Source: Sunxiuqinia dokdonensis (lineage in GTDB: Bacteria; Bacteroidota; Bacteroidia; Bacteroidales; Prolixibacteraceae). Taken from it: DNA of 55,189 bases. Within the stretch, counting starts at the first letter, position 1. The number at the start of each line of letters is the position of its first letter. This document shows positions 163-53,112 of the stretch, piece by piece. The position numbers and the translations under genes were made by a program. Below the pieces are notes generated by a model that saw nothing but the letters and a program-made list of their open reading frames with translations, was not told where the DNA came from and did not search any database. The stretch covers positions 1 through 55,189 of the forward strand of contig NZ_LGIA01000208.1 in assembly GCF_001270965.1 (NCBI RefSeq). The letters run 5' to 3'.

Positions 163-582
163 ATGAACAAACAACTTGCGGTGAACGGTATTTCCGTTCT
201 CTTATTTCGCATGAGTCTTAGCGGAATTTTCATTTCAGCAGGAGCCACACATCTGCTCAATCCAAGCGGAGTGGCAGAACGCATTCAGGCAGCAGCCATG
301 AGCTCTTTCGCTATGCTGATGGGCGACCCGTACCTGATGGGCATCTTGTCAGGCTATGCGTTGCTGATTGGCGGCATCGCCCTGCTGCTGGGTCTGTTTA
401 CCCGGTGGGCTGCACTCGGATTATTTTTTGTGCTCATCCCCATTACCATCACCATACAGATTGGCAACGGACTCATGCACGGCCCATTGTGGAAGAATGT
501 CGCCCTTTTCGGGGGGCTCCTCTTTTTTATCATCAACAACCCAAAAGTTTACCGTATTTACAACAAAACACAGCAACAATGA
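163..582 (+). CDS. DoxX family membrane protein
   Basis: This 139-residue inner-membrane protein has four predicted membrane spans (about residues 10-30, 58-78, 83-101 and 112-126), the size and layout of the DoxX family. DoxX proteins are small quinone-linked or redox membrane subunits; one branch is the thiosulfate:quinone oxidoreductase subunit. The start at 163 places a charged N-terminus before the first span. Its stop overlaps the next gene's start (ATGA at 579-582), so it is translationally coupled to a DsrE-like protein and followed by a SoxB-like enzyme. That context suggests electron transfer from a reduced sulfur compound to quinone, which is inference. The family call is good; the substrate is unknown. 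Confidence 0.8.
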   Translation: MNKQLAVNGISVLLFRMSLSGIFISAGATHLLNPSGVAERIQAAAMSSFAMLMGDPYLMGILSGYALLIGGIALLLGLFTRWAALGLFFVLIPITITIQIGNGLMHGPLWKNVALFGGLLFFIINNPKVYRIYNKTQQQ

Positions 583-1022
583 AGATATACAGCATCATTC
601 TTTTCATCGCCCTGTCCATTTCAGGAGCGAATATGGTCCATGCACAAACAGCAGAAGAGATCAAAAAAACAGAGCAGTCGATTAAGAAAAATGGCCAGTA
701 TGCCCTCCTGGTGATGAAGGCCCAGCACCTGAAAGCTGCGATCAAAACGGGCGTTGACTTTAAGAGCAAAAGTGCTAAAATTGATTTTCACATGGTAGCC
801 TGCGGCGAACTGGTCAAACAAATTTCGACGGATCAAACACTAAAGCACCTGGTCGGGGAAGCGGTAAACAAGCACGGCTTGAAGATCCTCGTCTGCGGAT
901 TGTCGATTGAACAATTCGAAGTAGACCAAACGCTTCTTCCGGAAGAAACGCCTGTTACCGCCAATGGATTGGTTTACCTGTTCGGGCTACAGGAGCAAGG
1001 ATTTAAAACAGTCATTCTTTAA
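579..1022 (+). CDS. secreted DsrE/DsrF-like protein
   Basis: A 147-residue protein whose first 22 residues form a signal peptide ending near VHAQ, followed by a DsrE-type alpha/beta domain. DsrE-like proteins carry or relay sulfur through cysteine; here Cys75 (in HMVACGELV) and Cys106 (in ILVCGLSI) are the candidate sulfur-carrying residues. The frame is open upstream to 405, but that part overlaps the DoxX gene in another frame, and the ATG at 579 gives both the signal peptide and the ATGA coupling. The metallophosphoesterase begins 12 bases after the stop. A periplasmic sulfur-carrier role between the DoxX protein and the SoxB-like enzyme is inferred from context. Confidence 0.75.
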   Translation: MKIYSIILFIALSISGANMVHAQTAEEIKKTEQSIKKNGQYALLVMKAQHLKAAIKTGVDFKSKSAKIDFHMVACGELVKQISTDQTLKHLVGEAVNKHGLKILVCGLSIEQFEVDQTLLPEETPVTANGLVYLFGLQEQGFKTVIL

Positions 1023-1034
1023 AACAAACATTTC

Positions 1035-2651
1035 ATGAAAAATATTATCATAACAACAGCACTCCTTCTCCTAAGCATCAGCGCTTACCAGAACGGGGTG
1101 GACAAAACCAATGAAGAAACGATAACGATTTTACAAACAGCCGATATTCACGCTTACCTGAATCCACACGATGAGCTTTTTGTTGAAAACGGCCAGATTG
1201 TTTTCAGAAAGGCAGGTGGCATGGCCCAGATTAAAACCCTGACGGACAGCATCAGACGGTTGAATCCGGCAGGGACGCTGCTTATTGATGGGGGAGACCT
1301 GATTCAGGGGAGCGGATCGAGCGTGCGGTCGCAGGGGAAAATCTTTCCTCCAATTGTTCAGGCCATGAACTACGACCTGCTGATCCCTGGAAACTGGGAA
1401 GTGGTTTACGGCAAGCAGGTAATGATGGACCTCCTGAACAACTATCAAACCAAGGTCATTGTGGCCAATATGTATGACGAAGAAACCGGAAAGAACCTAT
1501 TTCCTCCCTACTGGATTACGGAAAAGAAAGGCGTCAGAATCGGATTCATGGCCTACAACGACCCGGAAATCCCGATTCGTCAAAATCCGGGCTACAGCGA
1601 AGGCATGCGGTTTACGCCCGTGGAGGAAAACCTGAAAGCCCTCATTAGCCATCTTAAAACCGAAGAAAAAGTGGACCTCCTGTTTTTGGTGGCTCACCTG
1701 GGCATTTCCAAACAGCTGATGCTGGCCAACAATCCGGCCGTTGAAGGTGTGGACTTTATCTTTGGAAACGATACCCACGAACGCATCCGGAAGCCCATTG
1801 AAGGAAAGTATGCCAAAGTGGTGGAGCCCGGTGCTTTCGGCTCTTTTGTTGGCCGGCTGGACCTGAAGGTCAAGAACAACAAGCTGGTGGATTACAGCTA
1901 CGAACTTCTGGATGTTTCGCCCGAAAAGTACCCCGCAAACCTCGAAGTACAACAAATCATTGATCGGGCAACGGCTCCGTACCAGGAGGAAATGCAGACG
2001 GTGCTGGGTTACACCTCGGCGCCGATGTACCGCTATTTGGTTGTTGAAAATCCGATGGACAATTTTATCACCGATGCCCTGCTCTGGAAAACAGGAGCAG
2101 ATTTTGCCATGTCGAACGGCTTTCGTTTTGGGGTTCCCATTATTCCCGGTGCAGACGGGAAAGCGCCTATCACCAAGGCCGACCTGTGGCGCATGTTGCC
2201 CGTGAATGAACACATGAAGATTGGGAAAGTGACCGGCCGGCAAATCAAAAGCTGGCTGGAACAGGAAATTCACAATGTGTTTGCAGCCAATTACCAGGAG
2301 CGTTTTGGTGGCTGGCTGGTTCGCTTTTCGGGAATGACCCTGCGTTTTAATAGTTCGGAAGGAAAAGGAAACCGCATCGAGTCGATCACCATCCAGGGCC
2401 AACCGCTGGAGCTGGACAAAACCTATACCATGGCTTCGTGTAACCGAACCGGAGAGCCGCTGTCGACCATGTGCCGGCTAAAGAATACGCAGGATGCAGA
2501 AATTCAGGATTATACCATGCACGAAGCCATCGAAGACTATCTGAAAGCAAAAGGCACCATTCATCCAGGACTCGATGGCAGGGCCATGGCCACTGATCTG
2601 GGAACCCAGGCCTTTTCACAAATGAAAGAAGGCAAGTACCAATTTCAATGA
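1035..2651 (+). CDS. SoxB-like 5'-nucleotidase-family metallophosphoesterase
   Basis: This 538-residue exported protein has a signal peptide (about residues 1-18), an N-terminal calcineurin-like metallophosphoesterase domain and a C-terminal 5'-nucleotidase domain. Metal motifs visible are DIH (37-39), DGGD (85-88), GNWE (119-122), AHLG (220-223) and NDTHE (245-249). The tryptophan in GNWE, where 5'-nucleotidases have GNHE, and C-terminal stretches such as NGFRFG and ERFGGWLVRF recall SoxB, the thiosulfohydrolase that releases sulfate from protein-bound cysteine S-thiosulfonate. Asp246 replaces the first His of the usual HTH. It is the third gene of the DoxX/DsrE operon. No SoxYZ, SoxAX or SoxCD genes are nearby, so a nucleotidase role remains possible. 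Confidence 0.75.
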   Translation: MKNIIITTALLLLSISAYQNGVDKTNEETITILQTADIHAYLNPHDELFVENGQIVFRKAGGMAQIKTLTDSIRRLNPAGTLLIDGGDLIQGSGSSVRSQGKIFPPIVQAMNYDLLIPGNWEVVYGKQVMMDLLNNYQTKVIVANMYDEETGKNLFPPYWITEKKGVRIGFMAYNDPEIPIRQNPGYSEGMRFTPVEENLKALISHLKTEEKVDLLFLVAHLGISKQLMLANNPAVEGVDFIFGNDTHERIRKPIEGKYAKVVEPGAFGSFVGRLDLKVKNNKLVDYSYELLDVSPEKYPANLEVQQIIDRATAPYQEEMQTVLGYTSAPMYRYLVVENPMDNFITDALLWKTGADFAMSNGFRFGVPIIPGADGKAPITKADLWRMLPVNEHMKIGKVTGRQIKSWLEQEIHNVFAANYQERFGGWLVRFSGMTLRFNSSEGKGNRIESITIQGQPLELDKTYTMASCNRTGEPLSTMCRLKNTQDAEIQDYTMHEAIEDYLKAKGTIHPGLDGRAMATDLGTQAFSQMKEGKYQFQ

Positions 2652-50064: not shown

Positions 50065-53000
50065 ATGAAAAGAATATATCAATTTCTGGTTTCCACATCT
50101 TTTATGGGATTTTTGTTGCTGGTCATGGCTTTTTCCATGGCGATTGCCACGTTTGTTGAAAGCAGTTACGGCACGCCCGCGGCCAAGGCGCTGGTTTACA
50201 ATACCCACTGGTTCGAATTGGTTTTTTTACTGCTCGGAATAAGTTTAATCCACAATTTTTTGAAATATCGTCAGTACACCATGAAGAAGCTGACAGTCGG
50301 CATTTTTCACTTATCATTTATTGTGATTGTGATTGGTGCGGGCATTACCCGCTACATCAGTTTTGAAGGGATGATGCATATTCGCGAGGGCGAAAGCGCC
50401 GACCACATTGTGTCGAGCGATTCCTATTTTACGGTGGAGGCCAACGGGCAGGAAGTCACGGAGCGGGTTCTGTTTTCGGAGTTGAGTCCCAAAGAATTCA
50501 GCGAAAAAATGGAGATTGATGGCCAGTCAGTTCGAATCAAGTCTGTTGGTTTTGTGAAAGACGCGGTGCGAACACCTGTTGAAAGCCACTCGGGCGACCC
50601 GGTCGTCGATTTTGTGATTTCAGCAGGCGAGGGCATGGAGAACTTTACCTTTGGCAAAGGCCAGCTGGTGAATCTTGGGCCAGCTACCGTGGGTTTCGAA
50701 GGACAGGCTGACGTTCGTTTTGAACAGGAAGGTTCGCAGTTGTTTATTGTGGCCGACCGCGACATGGAAATTCGTTCCATGGCAGGTGGCGAACCTGAAT
50801 TGGTGCCTGCCGGAACGCGTTCGGAAGTGAAGTTGATGCACCTCTACGCTTTTGATGGCTACTTGGTTTTGGTTAAGAAATTCTTCGAAAAAGCGGCTTT
50901 GCGTGTAGCCAAAGGCAGCCCGGAAAGTTCGAATGAAGATGCGGTGATTGTGGAAATTTCTGACGGAGAGCGTCAGGCCATCGTCAATGTTTTTGGACGT
51001 GCCGGACAGATTGGCGATCCGGTGACTTACCTGGTAGGCAATACTCCGGTCAAACTCACCTACGGCTCCAAACCGGTTCATCTGCCTTTCAGTTTGAAGT
51101 TACATGATTTTCAATTGGAGCGTTATATCGGTTCCGAAAGTCCGTCGTCATTTGCCAGCGAAATACAATTGCTGGATCCGGAGCGCGATGTCAAGCGCGA
51201 TGTGCGAATTTTCATGAATAACACCTTGCAATACCGCGGCTATCGTTTCTACCAGTCGTCGTACGATCAGGACGAGGGGGGAACGATTTTATCAGTAAAC
51301 AAAGATTTTTGGGGCACGATGGTCACCTATCTGGGATACTTGCTTTTGACCGTGGGCATGATTCTGTCTCTGTTCAATAAAAACTCCTATTTCCAATTTT
51401 TGGTGCGTCACCTGAAAATGTCAGGAAAGGCAAAAATGGCTGTTGTCATGCTGGGCTTGTTGTTTGCCGGCAATCAGAGTATGGCACAAAGTCCGAGTAC
51501 AGCGGGAATTCCTCGTTTGGATGAGCAGCTGGTTGAAGATTTTTCGCAGTTGTGGGTGCATGGCCGCGATGGACGGATTGAGCCCATGTCAACCTTGTCG
51601 AGCGAAATTCTGCGTAAGTTGAGCCGTAAGTCAACGCTCAATGGCATGTCATCGGATGAAGTGGTGCTGAGCATGCACCTTTTTCCTGAGCTTTGGCGGT
51701 CGGTTCAGTTTATTAAAATTGATAAGGAAATTGCCGCGTCCATTGGGCTTCAGGATAAATATGCCCGGGTAATTGATTTATTTGATTTGGATGGAAACTA
51801 CCGGATTACAGAGCAGGTTCGTGCTGCTTTTGCCAAAGCACCGGCTTTTCGGAGTAAGCTGGACAAGGAATACATCTTTTTAGACGAACGGATTAACATC
51901 AGTTTTATGGTTTTTAAAGGCGATTTGCTGACTTTCTTTCCTCCGGAAAACCAAACCGATGCCTGGTGGGCGGTGGGTAGCAACCCGACCGGCTATCCGG
52001 CCGCCGACTCCCTGTTCGTGAATCGAAGCTTTAACCTGTTGGCCGATGGCGTTAAATCGGACAGCGACATCCAGCCCAGGCAGATTATTTCTACGGTAGC
52101 TGCTTTTCAGGAAAAATTTGGCGCTGGAATCTTGCCTTCGGAACAACAAAAATCTGCGGAAATGCTGTATAACAAATACCAGCCTTTCAAGCGGGTTTTC
52201 CCTTGGTATCTGCTGGTTGGTTTTGTTTTGCTGATCATTCTTTTCGTGAATATTTTCCGCCAAAAACCCATGCATAAAATAACCCGATACAGTTTTAGCG
52301 GATTGATTTATTTGGGCTTTTTGATACACACCGTGGGATTGATCGTTCGGTGGTACATTTCAGGCCGAGCACCTTGGAGCAACGGTTACGAGTCGATGAT
52401 TTATGTGGCTTGGGCCGCGATGCTGTCGGGTATTATTTTCGGAAGAAAGTACCCGATGGTTTTAGGCACCGCTGCAATCTTATCGGGAATCACCTTGTTT
52501 GTGGCTCATCTTAACTGGATGAACCCGGAGATTACGCCGCTGGTTCCGGTGCTGAAATCGTACTGGCTCATGATTCACGTCTCCATTATTACGGCCAGCT
52601 ATGGCTTTCTTGGCTTGAGCGCTTTTCTGGGTATTTTGGTGCTGGTGTTGTATGCCATCATGAAAAAAAGTAACCAGAAAAATGTGGACCACTTCATCGA
52701 TCAGTTGACCACCATCAGTGAGCTTTCGGCCACGATTGGGCTGTATATGTTGACGATCGGAACTTTTCTTGGCGGCATCTGGGCCAACGAAAGTTGGGGC
52801 CGCTACTGGGGCTGGGATCCCAAGGAAACCTGGGCTTTGATTACGGCCGTGATTTATGCGTTTATCGTTCACATGCGTTTGATTCCCTCGCTTCGGGGCC
52901 GGTACAACTATAACCTGGCCACGGTGATAGCCTTTACTTCGGTGCTCATGACCTATTTTGGAGTCAACTACTTTTTATCGGGTCTGCATTCCTACGGCAA

Positions 53001-53112
53001 GGGTTCCGCAGATGGAATTCACTGGGCTGTTTATGCGTCCGTAGGCGCGATCACCCTCTTGGCGATCTGGTCATACATCAATTACAAGAAGTTTGAGGAA
53101 ATCGCAGAATAG
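50065..53112 (+). CDS. ccsBA: fused cytochrome c synthase CcsBA (ResB-CcsA)
   Basis: System II cytochrome c synthase exports heme and attaches it to CxxCH motifs of apocytochromes. This 1015-residue fusion has a ResB/CcsB half (about 1-450: spans near the N-terminus, a large periplasmic domain, and a span around 415-440) and a CcsA half (about 710-1010) with the tryptophan-rich heme motif WGRYWGWDPKETWALI (about 913-928). Between them, residues about 460-478 (MAVVMLGLLFAGNQSMAQS) look like an embedded signal peptide before a second periplasmic stretch. Fusions of this kind are normal in Bacteroidota and Epsilonproteobacteria. No cytochrome gene such as nrfHA is in the window. Confidence 0.93.
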   Translation: MKRIYQFLVSTSFMGFLLLVMAFSMAIATFVESSYGTPAAKALVYNTHWFELVFLLLGISLIHNFLKYRQYTMKKLTVGIFHLSFIVIVIGAGITRYISFEGMMHIREGESADHIVSSDSYFTVEANGQEVTERVLFSELSPKEFSEKMEIDGQSVRIKSVGFVKDAVRTPVESHSGDPVVDFVISAGEGMENFTFGKGQLVNLGPATVGFEGQADVRFEQEGSQLFIVADRDMEIRSMAGGEPELVPAGTRSEVKLMHLYAFDGYLVLVKKFFEKAALRVAKGSPESSNEDAVIVEISDGERQAIVNVFGRAGQIGDPVTYLVGNTPVKLTYGSKPVHLPFSLKLHDFQLERYIGSESPSSFASEIQLLDPERDVKRDVRIFMNNTLQYRGYRFYQSSYDQDEGGTILSVNKDFWGTMVTYLGYLLLTVGMILSLFNKNSYFQFLVRHLKMSGKAKMAVVMLGLLFAGNQSMAQSPSTAGIPRLDEQLVEDFSQLWVHGRDGRIEPMSTLSSEILRKLSRKSTLNGMSSDEVVLSMHLFPELWRSVQFIKIDKEIAASIGLQDKYARVIDLFDLDGNYRITEQVRAAFAKAPAFRSKLDKEYIFLDERINISFMVFKGDLLTFFPPENQTDAWWAVGSNPTGYPAADSLFVNRSFNLLADGVKSDSDIQPRQIISTVAAFQEKFGAGILPSEQQKSAEMLYNKYQPFKRVFPWYLLVGFVLLIILFVNIFRQKPMHKITRYSFSGLIYLGFLIHTVGLIVRWYISGRAPWSNGYESMIYVAWAAMLSGIIFGRKYPMVLGTAAILSGITLFVAHLNWMNPEITPLVPVLKSYWLMIHVSIITASYGFLGLSAFLGILVLVLYAIMKKSNQKNVDHFIDQLTTISELSATIGLYMLTIGTFLGGIWANESWGRYWGWDPKETWALITAVIYAFIVHMRLIPSLRGRYNYNLATVIAFTSVLMTYFGVNYFLSGLHSYGKGSADGIHWAVYASVGAITLLAIWSYINYKKFEEIAE

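Follow-up and report, generated by a model that had tools for sequence, protein, structure and literature searches.

A signal-peptide-like segment within the fused cytochrome c synthase CcsBA and its probable cleavage by signal peptidase I

Fused synthases recovered in two pieces

CcsBA serves as the model for how heme is transported and attached, and its occurrence in two pieces has been published without a named protease. When produced as recombinant proteins, the CcsBA of H. hepaticus, H. pylori and C. jejuni are each recovered as two polypeptides on purification, and W. succinogenes CcsBA undergoes a similar cut. The two H. hepaticus pieces, CcsB′ and ′CcsA, co-purify, and what is called their ‘natural proteolysis’ occurs at residue 368, near the fifth transmembrane segment (TM5), and affects over 90% of the preparation. 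The cut persists in protease-deficient E. coli strains and in a protein from which residues 358–377 have been deleted, and splitting the gene at 368 leaves at least 15% of function. The authors' account is of an accessible linker, and the available text names no protease (PMC6299221, PMC11322641). In the available portions of the literature on CcsBA and signal peptidase, no link of the cut to signal peptidase I was found.

In the Bacteroidota most substrates of signal peptidase I bear Gln at the first position after the cut (+1), where it is cyclised; Q at +1 is lower in the Chlamydiae and Spirochaetes, with exceptions in a few Cyanobacteria (PMC5837995, PMC10653852). The reports of this Q-rule, as far as their available text goes, concern signal peptides generally, unlike the internal site considered here; in their main texts ‘cytochrome’ is absent and ‘internal’ appears once, of tryptic peptides.

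The ccsBA gene and its product

The window, that is the whole stretch of DNA analysed, is 55,189 nucleotides of a Sunxiuqinia dokdonensis contig (NZ_LGIA01000208.1, positions 1 to 55,189). Its relevant features, all on the plus strand, are given below; a slash marks a predicted cut.

50065..53112, plus strand: ccsBA, fused System II cytochrome c synthase, 1015 aa (Pfam ResB and Cytochrom_C_asm; TIGR03144; Foldseek to 7s9y)
50065..51486, plus strand: predicted CcsB product, residues 1–474 (TM1–TM4, periplasmic domain 1, TM5/signal segment), about 52.9 kDa (from model and mass)
51307..51375, plus strand: TM4 of the ResB half, residues 415–437 (AlphaFold helix)
51388..51426, plus strand: basic helix, residues 442–454, presumed cytoplasmic, its end overlapped by the n-region of the signal segment (AlphaFold model and sequence)
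51418..51486, plus strand: TM5, an internal signal-peptide-like segment, residues 452–474, ending S-M-A (alignments, site scores, low pLDDT at 455–478)
51484..51489, plus strand: predicted signal peptidase I site A474/Q475, of Q-rule type (+1 tests, sequence)
51487..53109, plus strand: predicted CcsA product, residues 475–1015 (PD2, TM6, CcsA), about 61.3 kDa (from mass)
51514..52179, plus strand: periplasmic domain 2 (PD2), residues 484–705 (AlphaFold model; without Pfam match in the window copy)
52183..52260, plus strand: TM6, residues 707–732, the separate-gene junction of relatives lying at about 706–745 (model and comparison with unfused and split copies)
52375..52989, plus strand: CcsA core with WWD motif, residues 771–975 (Pfam; invariant W906–E921 region and histidines)

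The two Pfam matches lie in one ORF, ResB with its best stretch at 330–404 and Cytochrom_C_asm at 771–975, and the product scores above the family cut-off of NCBIfam TIGR03144. Foldseek places its AlphaFold model on the fold of a solved CcsBA, 7s9y (E 3.1e-54, TM-score 0.75/0.84, 33% identity); by sequence, too, the closest solved structures are 7s9y/7s9z, the H. hepaticus CcsBA, and 25vk. H82, H838, H936 and H975 are invariant in 52 sequences, as are columns in W906–E921 (WWD), and the four histidines, by alignment, are presumably the TM-His and P-His residues. The Pfam halves, the TIGR03144 score, the 7s9y fold, the invariant histidines and the WWD region thus identify the protein as a System II synthase of the naturally fused type. 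The H. hepaticus and window proteins have domain order and fold in common, with TM5 at the same place. The 828-aa CcsA/CcsBA of 25vk reads A-S-Y-A/Q-E at the place equivalent to the window site, and differs from the window CcsBA in its shorter periplasmic domain 1.

A segment that resembles a signal peptide

Around TM5 the ORF reads R448-H-L-K-M-S-G-K-A-K-M-A-V-V-M-L-G-L-L-F-A-G-N-Q-S-M-A474/Q475-S-P. Residues 452–474 comprise a basic stretch, then a short hydrophobic stretch, then S-M-A/Q-S, so that TM5 has the basic n-region, short h-region and small −3 and −1 residues of a signal peptidase I substrate. The preliminary description had reported such a segment, ending in SMAQS, at 51350–51520 and had put it between the ResB half and a second periplasmic stretch. 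The letters are exactly those, the segment at 51418–51486 lies inside that interval, and it follows TM4 (415–437) and precedes the domain that starts at about 484.

The AlphaFold model, made from the 52 sequences, has a mean pLDDT of 85.2 and a pTM of 0.80. Its sole long stretch with pLDDT below 50 is 455–478, where no helix is assigned; the other low stretch is 821–826. Among eight helices measured TM5 is also the lowest in conservation, with a mean pairwise identity of 0.23 against 0.32–0.64 for the others (up to 1500 sampled pairs from 80 representatives), keeping in mind that misalignment of a drifting segment may depress the TM5 figure.

Relatives were aligned in three rounds: 76 fused proteins, after 7 of 83 loci were dropped as unfused, partial or duplicate hits; 154 sequences including Campylobacterota, one Aquificota MAG and two PDB fragments (156 loci plus the two, minus four truncated duplicates); and 205 sequences, the window included, after 51 of 68 further loci were added. 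These 205 belong to the Bacteroidota, Campylobacterota and Aquificota. Alignment of the junction in related fusions, which had been suggested as a check, brings out a comparable segment throughout the 205: its letters drift while the signature of the cut site is kept. All 205 have a hydrophobic TM5 core, and 200 have a net charge of at least 2 over the 14 residues before it, though the median for TM3 is equal and a basic flank alone is not special. By eye, nearly all rows show the basic stretch and the short hydrophobic stretch followed by a small residue, usually Ala, with L080 and L215 among the weakest examples.

How far TM5 stands apart from other helices

TM5 might be a plain uncleaved span that just places PD2 outside and whose signal-like look is incidental. 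The topology demands an in-to-out span at this place, and small residues are common at helix ends: a permissive site rule, blind to +1, also passes TM1 in 182/183, TM3 in 176/196 and TM11 in 201/201 sequences, and does not by itself separate TM5. One would expect a packed span to show more conservation and a more confident model than TM5 does.

Scoring for likeness to signal peptides sets TM5 apart in part. With a position weight matrix (PWM) trained on 141 unrelated N-terminal signal candidates from the same loci, the median is 5.1 for TM5, 2.8 for the candidates themselves on cross-validation, −1.0 for the first helix of polytopic proteins and between −2.7 and 3.0 for the other in-to-out helices; at a lax threshold the pass rates are 0.90 for TM5, 0.93 for TM8, 0.87 for TM1 and 0.77 for TM9. 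TM5 exceeds the maximum over six other helices in 89 of 153 sequences and in 31 of 56 representatives (p 0.057), and shuffling each sequence gives a median p of 0.08, with p<0.05 in just 41% of 154. A larger training set (250 candidates and 69 negatives from 1573 genes) gave a TM5 median of 7.6, above every other in-to-out helix except TM11 at 8.2, and a weak classifier (cross-validated AUC 0.71) that assigns a probability above 0.5 to TM5 in 91% of the 205 sequences, to TM1, TM3, TM7, TM9 and TM13 in 2–19% and to TM11 in 86%. By the same weak classifier H. hepaticus TM5 scores 0.42, and 19 of the 205 TM5 segments are at or below 0.5. TM11 scores high because its conserved WANES motif mimics a site. 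The motif [AVSTGLI]xA[QDESN] occurs at TM5 in 114/154 sequences against 48 expected by shuffling, at TM11 in 118/151 and at other helices in 0–20. Two other matrices were set aside, one from free expectation-maximisation whose register drifted, and a von Heijne matrix whose chosen sites, when the search window was wide, lay far downstream in some rows.

The residue after the predicted cut

The +1 residue provides a test separate from these scores, with each cut site chosen from −3, −1, nearby charge and distance and blind to +1. For these counts L113, labelled Flavobacteriales, was placed with the Aquificota because its sequence matches that group, and 25vk was counted, by assumption, with the Bacteroidota; the grouping for the larger-set classifier differs slightly. 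Q stands at +1 in 82/121 Bacteroidota TM5 segments and in 77/145 N-terminal signals of that phylum; the counts for Campylobacterota are 6/60 and 2/61. TM5 thus goes with the signal peptides of its own lineage, and Fisher's test on the +1 Q contrast gives p 3e-14, a statistic that ignores phylogeny. The +1-blind rule gave no site in 8 of the 205 TM5 segments, seven of which, on inspection, have Q preceded by A, G or S.

The enrichment is confined to one position: among Bacteroidota representatives below 65% identity Q occurs at +1 in 28/49 and nowhere else between −8 and +9 in more than 6/49. At the chosen Bacteroidota site [AGS]/Q is found in 86/128 sequences, 11.3 being expected from local shuffling. 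Near the TM5 end [AGS]Q is present in 104/128, while other in-to-out helices have it in 0–20 of 116–127, and for other polytopic proteins of the Bacteroidota it appears at 39/527 internal helix ends, one of the 39 being a CcsBA that had passed the filter. Substrates of the Q-rule have A/Q at the site at a frequency similar to that of CcsBA TM5 (PMC5837995, PMC10653852). The Campylobacterota signal is modest: −1 is Ala in 60/61 TM5 segments against 50.4 in shuffles, and the site score is at least 3.5 in 35/61 against 28.0.

We know of no reason why a span that is never cut should carry its phylum's signal-peptidase signature, Q at +1. The preliminary description had named full-length protein alone as the finding that would speak against cleavage; the published recombinant relatives show the opposite, being recovered cut (PMC6299221, PMC11322641). 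A plain span is for these reasons improbable, and cleavage at the end of TM5 is the reading followed below.

A predicted route to two chains

The segment at 452–474 very probably functions as an internal signal peptide that signal peptidase I cuts. Splitting of the protein by internal cleavage, raised in the preliminary description as something that could happen, is strongly supported by the conservation, the Q-rule test and the proteolysis published for recombinant relatives at the corresponding position (PMC6299221, PMC11322641), while for S. dokdonensis itself we infer the cut. The signal features, the conservation and the lineage-matched +1 residue come from the present analysis and the two co-purifying polypeptides from published work on three recombinant relatives. 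The genome encodes signal peptidase I. TM4 would return the chain to the cytoplasm, and the basic loop and the short hydrophobic TM5 would then re-insert it N-in/C-out via Sec, like a normal signal. Signal peptidase I, the presumed protease, would cut on the periplasmic side after A474. TM5 would remain as the last helix of a CcsB piece of about 53 kDa, and PD2, TM6 and CcsA would become a second chain of about 61 kDa with Q475 as its new N-terminus, probably pyroglutamate in Bacteroidota; both chains would stay together as one heme-handling complex.

In H. hepaticus CcsBA the residues aligned with the window site are A363-Y-A365/S366, two to three residues before the reported 368, a distance that follows from the match of W828, E843 and H761 to the numbering of 7s9y. 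The site is of Campylobacterota type, with S at +1 where the window protein has Q. The deletion of 358–377 removes A-Y-A and leaves C-Y-A (354–356), a possible replacement site, though this is a reading made after the fact. Continued cutting of the deletion protein, along with the reported position of 368, favours instead what the CcsBA authors propose, that another protease cuts a flexible periplasmic linker, and the linker is indeed variable in the alignment; against such a protease, the protease-deficient E. coli strains still cut (PMC6299221, PMC11322641). It would also give no account of the basic n-region or of why Ala is frequent and Gln, in a lineage-specific way, stands at one position, and must be judged quite improbable. 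The gene for signal peptidase I, lepB, is essential and would be missing from a panel of protease-deficient strains.

A further possibility is that the second half is also made from an internal translation start at M452 or M458, which would give CcsA an N-terminal signal of its own. In-frame ATGs exist at 51418 and 51436; across the 205 sequences just 65 have a Met within 15 residues before the core, and the GST-tagged N-terminal fragment reported for relatives could not arise from an internal start (PMC6299221, PMC11322641), so this is very improbable indeed.

Cleavage of CcsBA by signal peptidase would account for the purified relatives being in two pieces. It seems fairly likely that all naturally fused CcsBA are membrane polyproteins matured by signal peptidase I at a selected internal signal peptide, that this maturation is what has been called ‘natural proteolysis’ in the synthases of Helicobacter, Wolinella and Campylobacter, that the Q-rule extends to internal signals and that the working enzyme includes the new CcsA N-terminus, which in Bacteroidota would be pyroglutamate. 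Such polyproteins are a known kind: the Bradyrhizobium cytochrome b/c1 precursor FbcH is a membrane polyprotein from which signal peptidase, acting at an internal signal peptide, yields two subunits. FbcH and CcsBA are each a single membrane ORF with an internal signal, the signal-peptidase cut of CcsBA being the predicted one; the proteins are unrelated, one belonging to a cytochrome complex and the other being a synthase. What would be new is that CcsBA joins this kind across three phyla, with an explanation of its natural proteolysis. Naming the enzyme and the exact bond makes the cut testable, the native enzyme may be two chains, which is relevant to structural work, and the lineage-specific +1 rule is a way to spot internal signal peptides in sequence.

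Origin of the TM5-PD2-TM6 cassette

System II is present three times in this genome, as two fused CcsBA and as an unfused ResB/CcsA pair (G000 C69:10324-13374, C45:23090-24335). The second fused copy has 39% identity to that of the window, and its TM5 ends L-I-A/Q. The unfused ResB stops just past TM4 and the unfused CcsA begins near TM7, so that the fused family has TM5-PD2-TM6 as an additional cassette. TM5 opens this cassette; the junction of the ccsB and ccsA genes is elsewhere, about 230–270 residues further on. The preliminary description saw in the segment a sign that separate genes, one of them bearing its own signal, had given rise to the fusion. The cassette does begin like an exported protein, and an exported ancestor of PD2 is possible; to that extent separate genes are suggested, whereas no free-standing PD2 gene with a signal is among the matches listed, and one natural split lies after PD2.

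PD2 (484–705) is conserved across three phyla. The window copy is without a Pfam match at E 0.1, and in a scan of 24 members ten families each match one member, weakly. PD2 is present in 200/200 genomes of the phylum of L086 (Epsilonproteobacteria), 17/121 of the phylum of L088 (Aquificota) and 40/295 of the window's class, and among the matches listed for these 200, 121 and 295 genomes there were no free-standing PD2 genes or splits at TM5. Among these listed matches it lies solely in long fused ORFs, in frames at contig ends or in one interrupted copy. Short PD2 frames considered as TM5 splits proved to be at contig ends; for a 503-aa frame that was checked, the contig ends at 31615. The interrupted copy, a third CcsBA in a genome of the phylum of L086 (G322, L198 556-3465), has a 556-aa remaining frame that restarts within TM5; a transposase-like ORF (by eye, 556-1668, minus strand) lies just upstream, and the copy was rejected as a natural TM5 split.

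Other variants deserve mention. In another genome of that phylum (G443, L199 1387-5631) a 1414-aa ORF has the N-terminal part of CcsBA, to about TM7 and without the WWD motif, in frame with a module that by eye is hybrid histidine-kinase/receiver-like, and is either a real fusion or an assembly chimera. In the window's family a CcsBA copy (G030, L201 1134-3397) is split after PD2 into ORFs of 484 and 264 aa; if its TM5 were cut, PD2 would be a free periplasmic protein. Many Flavobacteria-type rows (for example L047, L050 and L162) have a variable His-rich stretch (HVHSHDHDHNHT-like) right after the predicted site, and in these it would form the N-terminus of the new CcsA chain.
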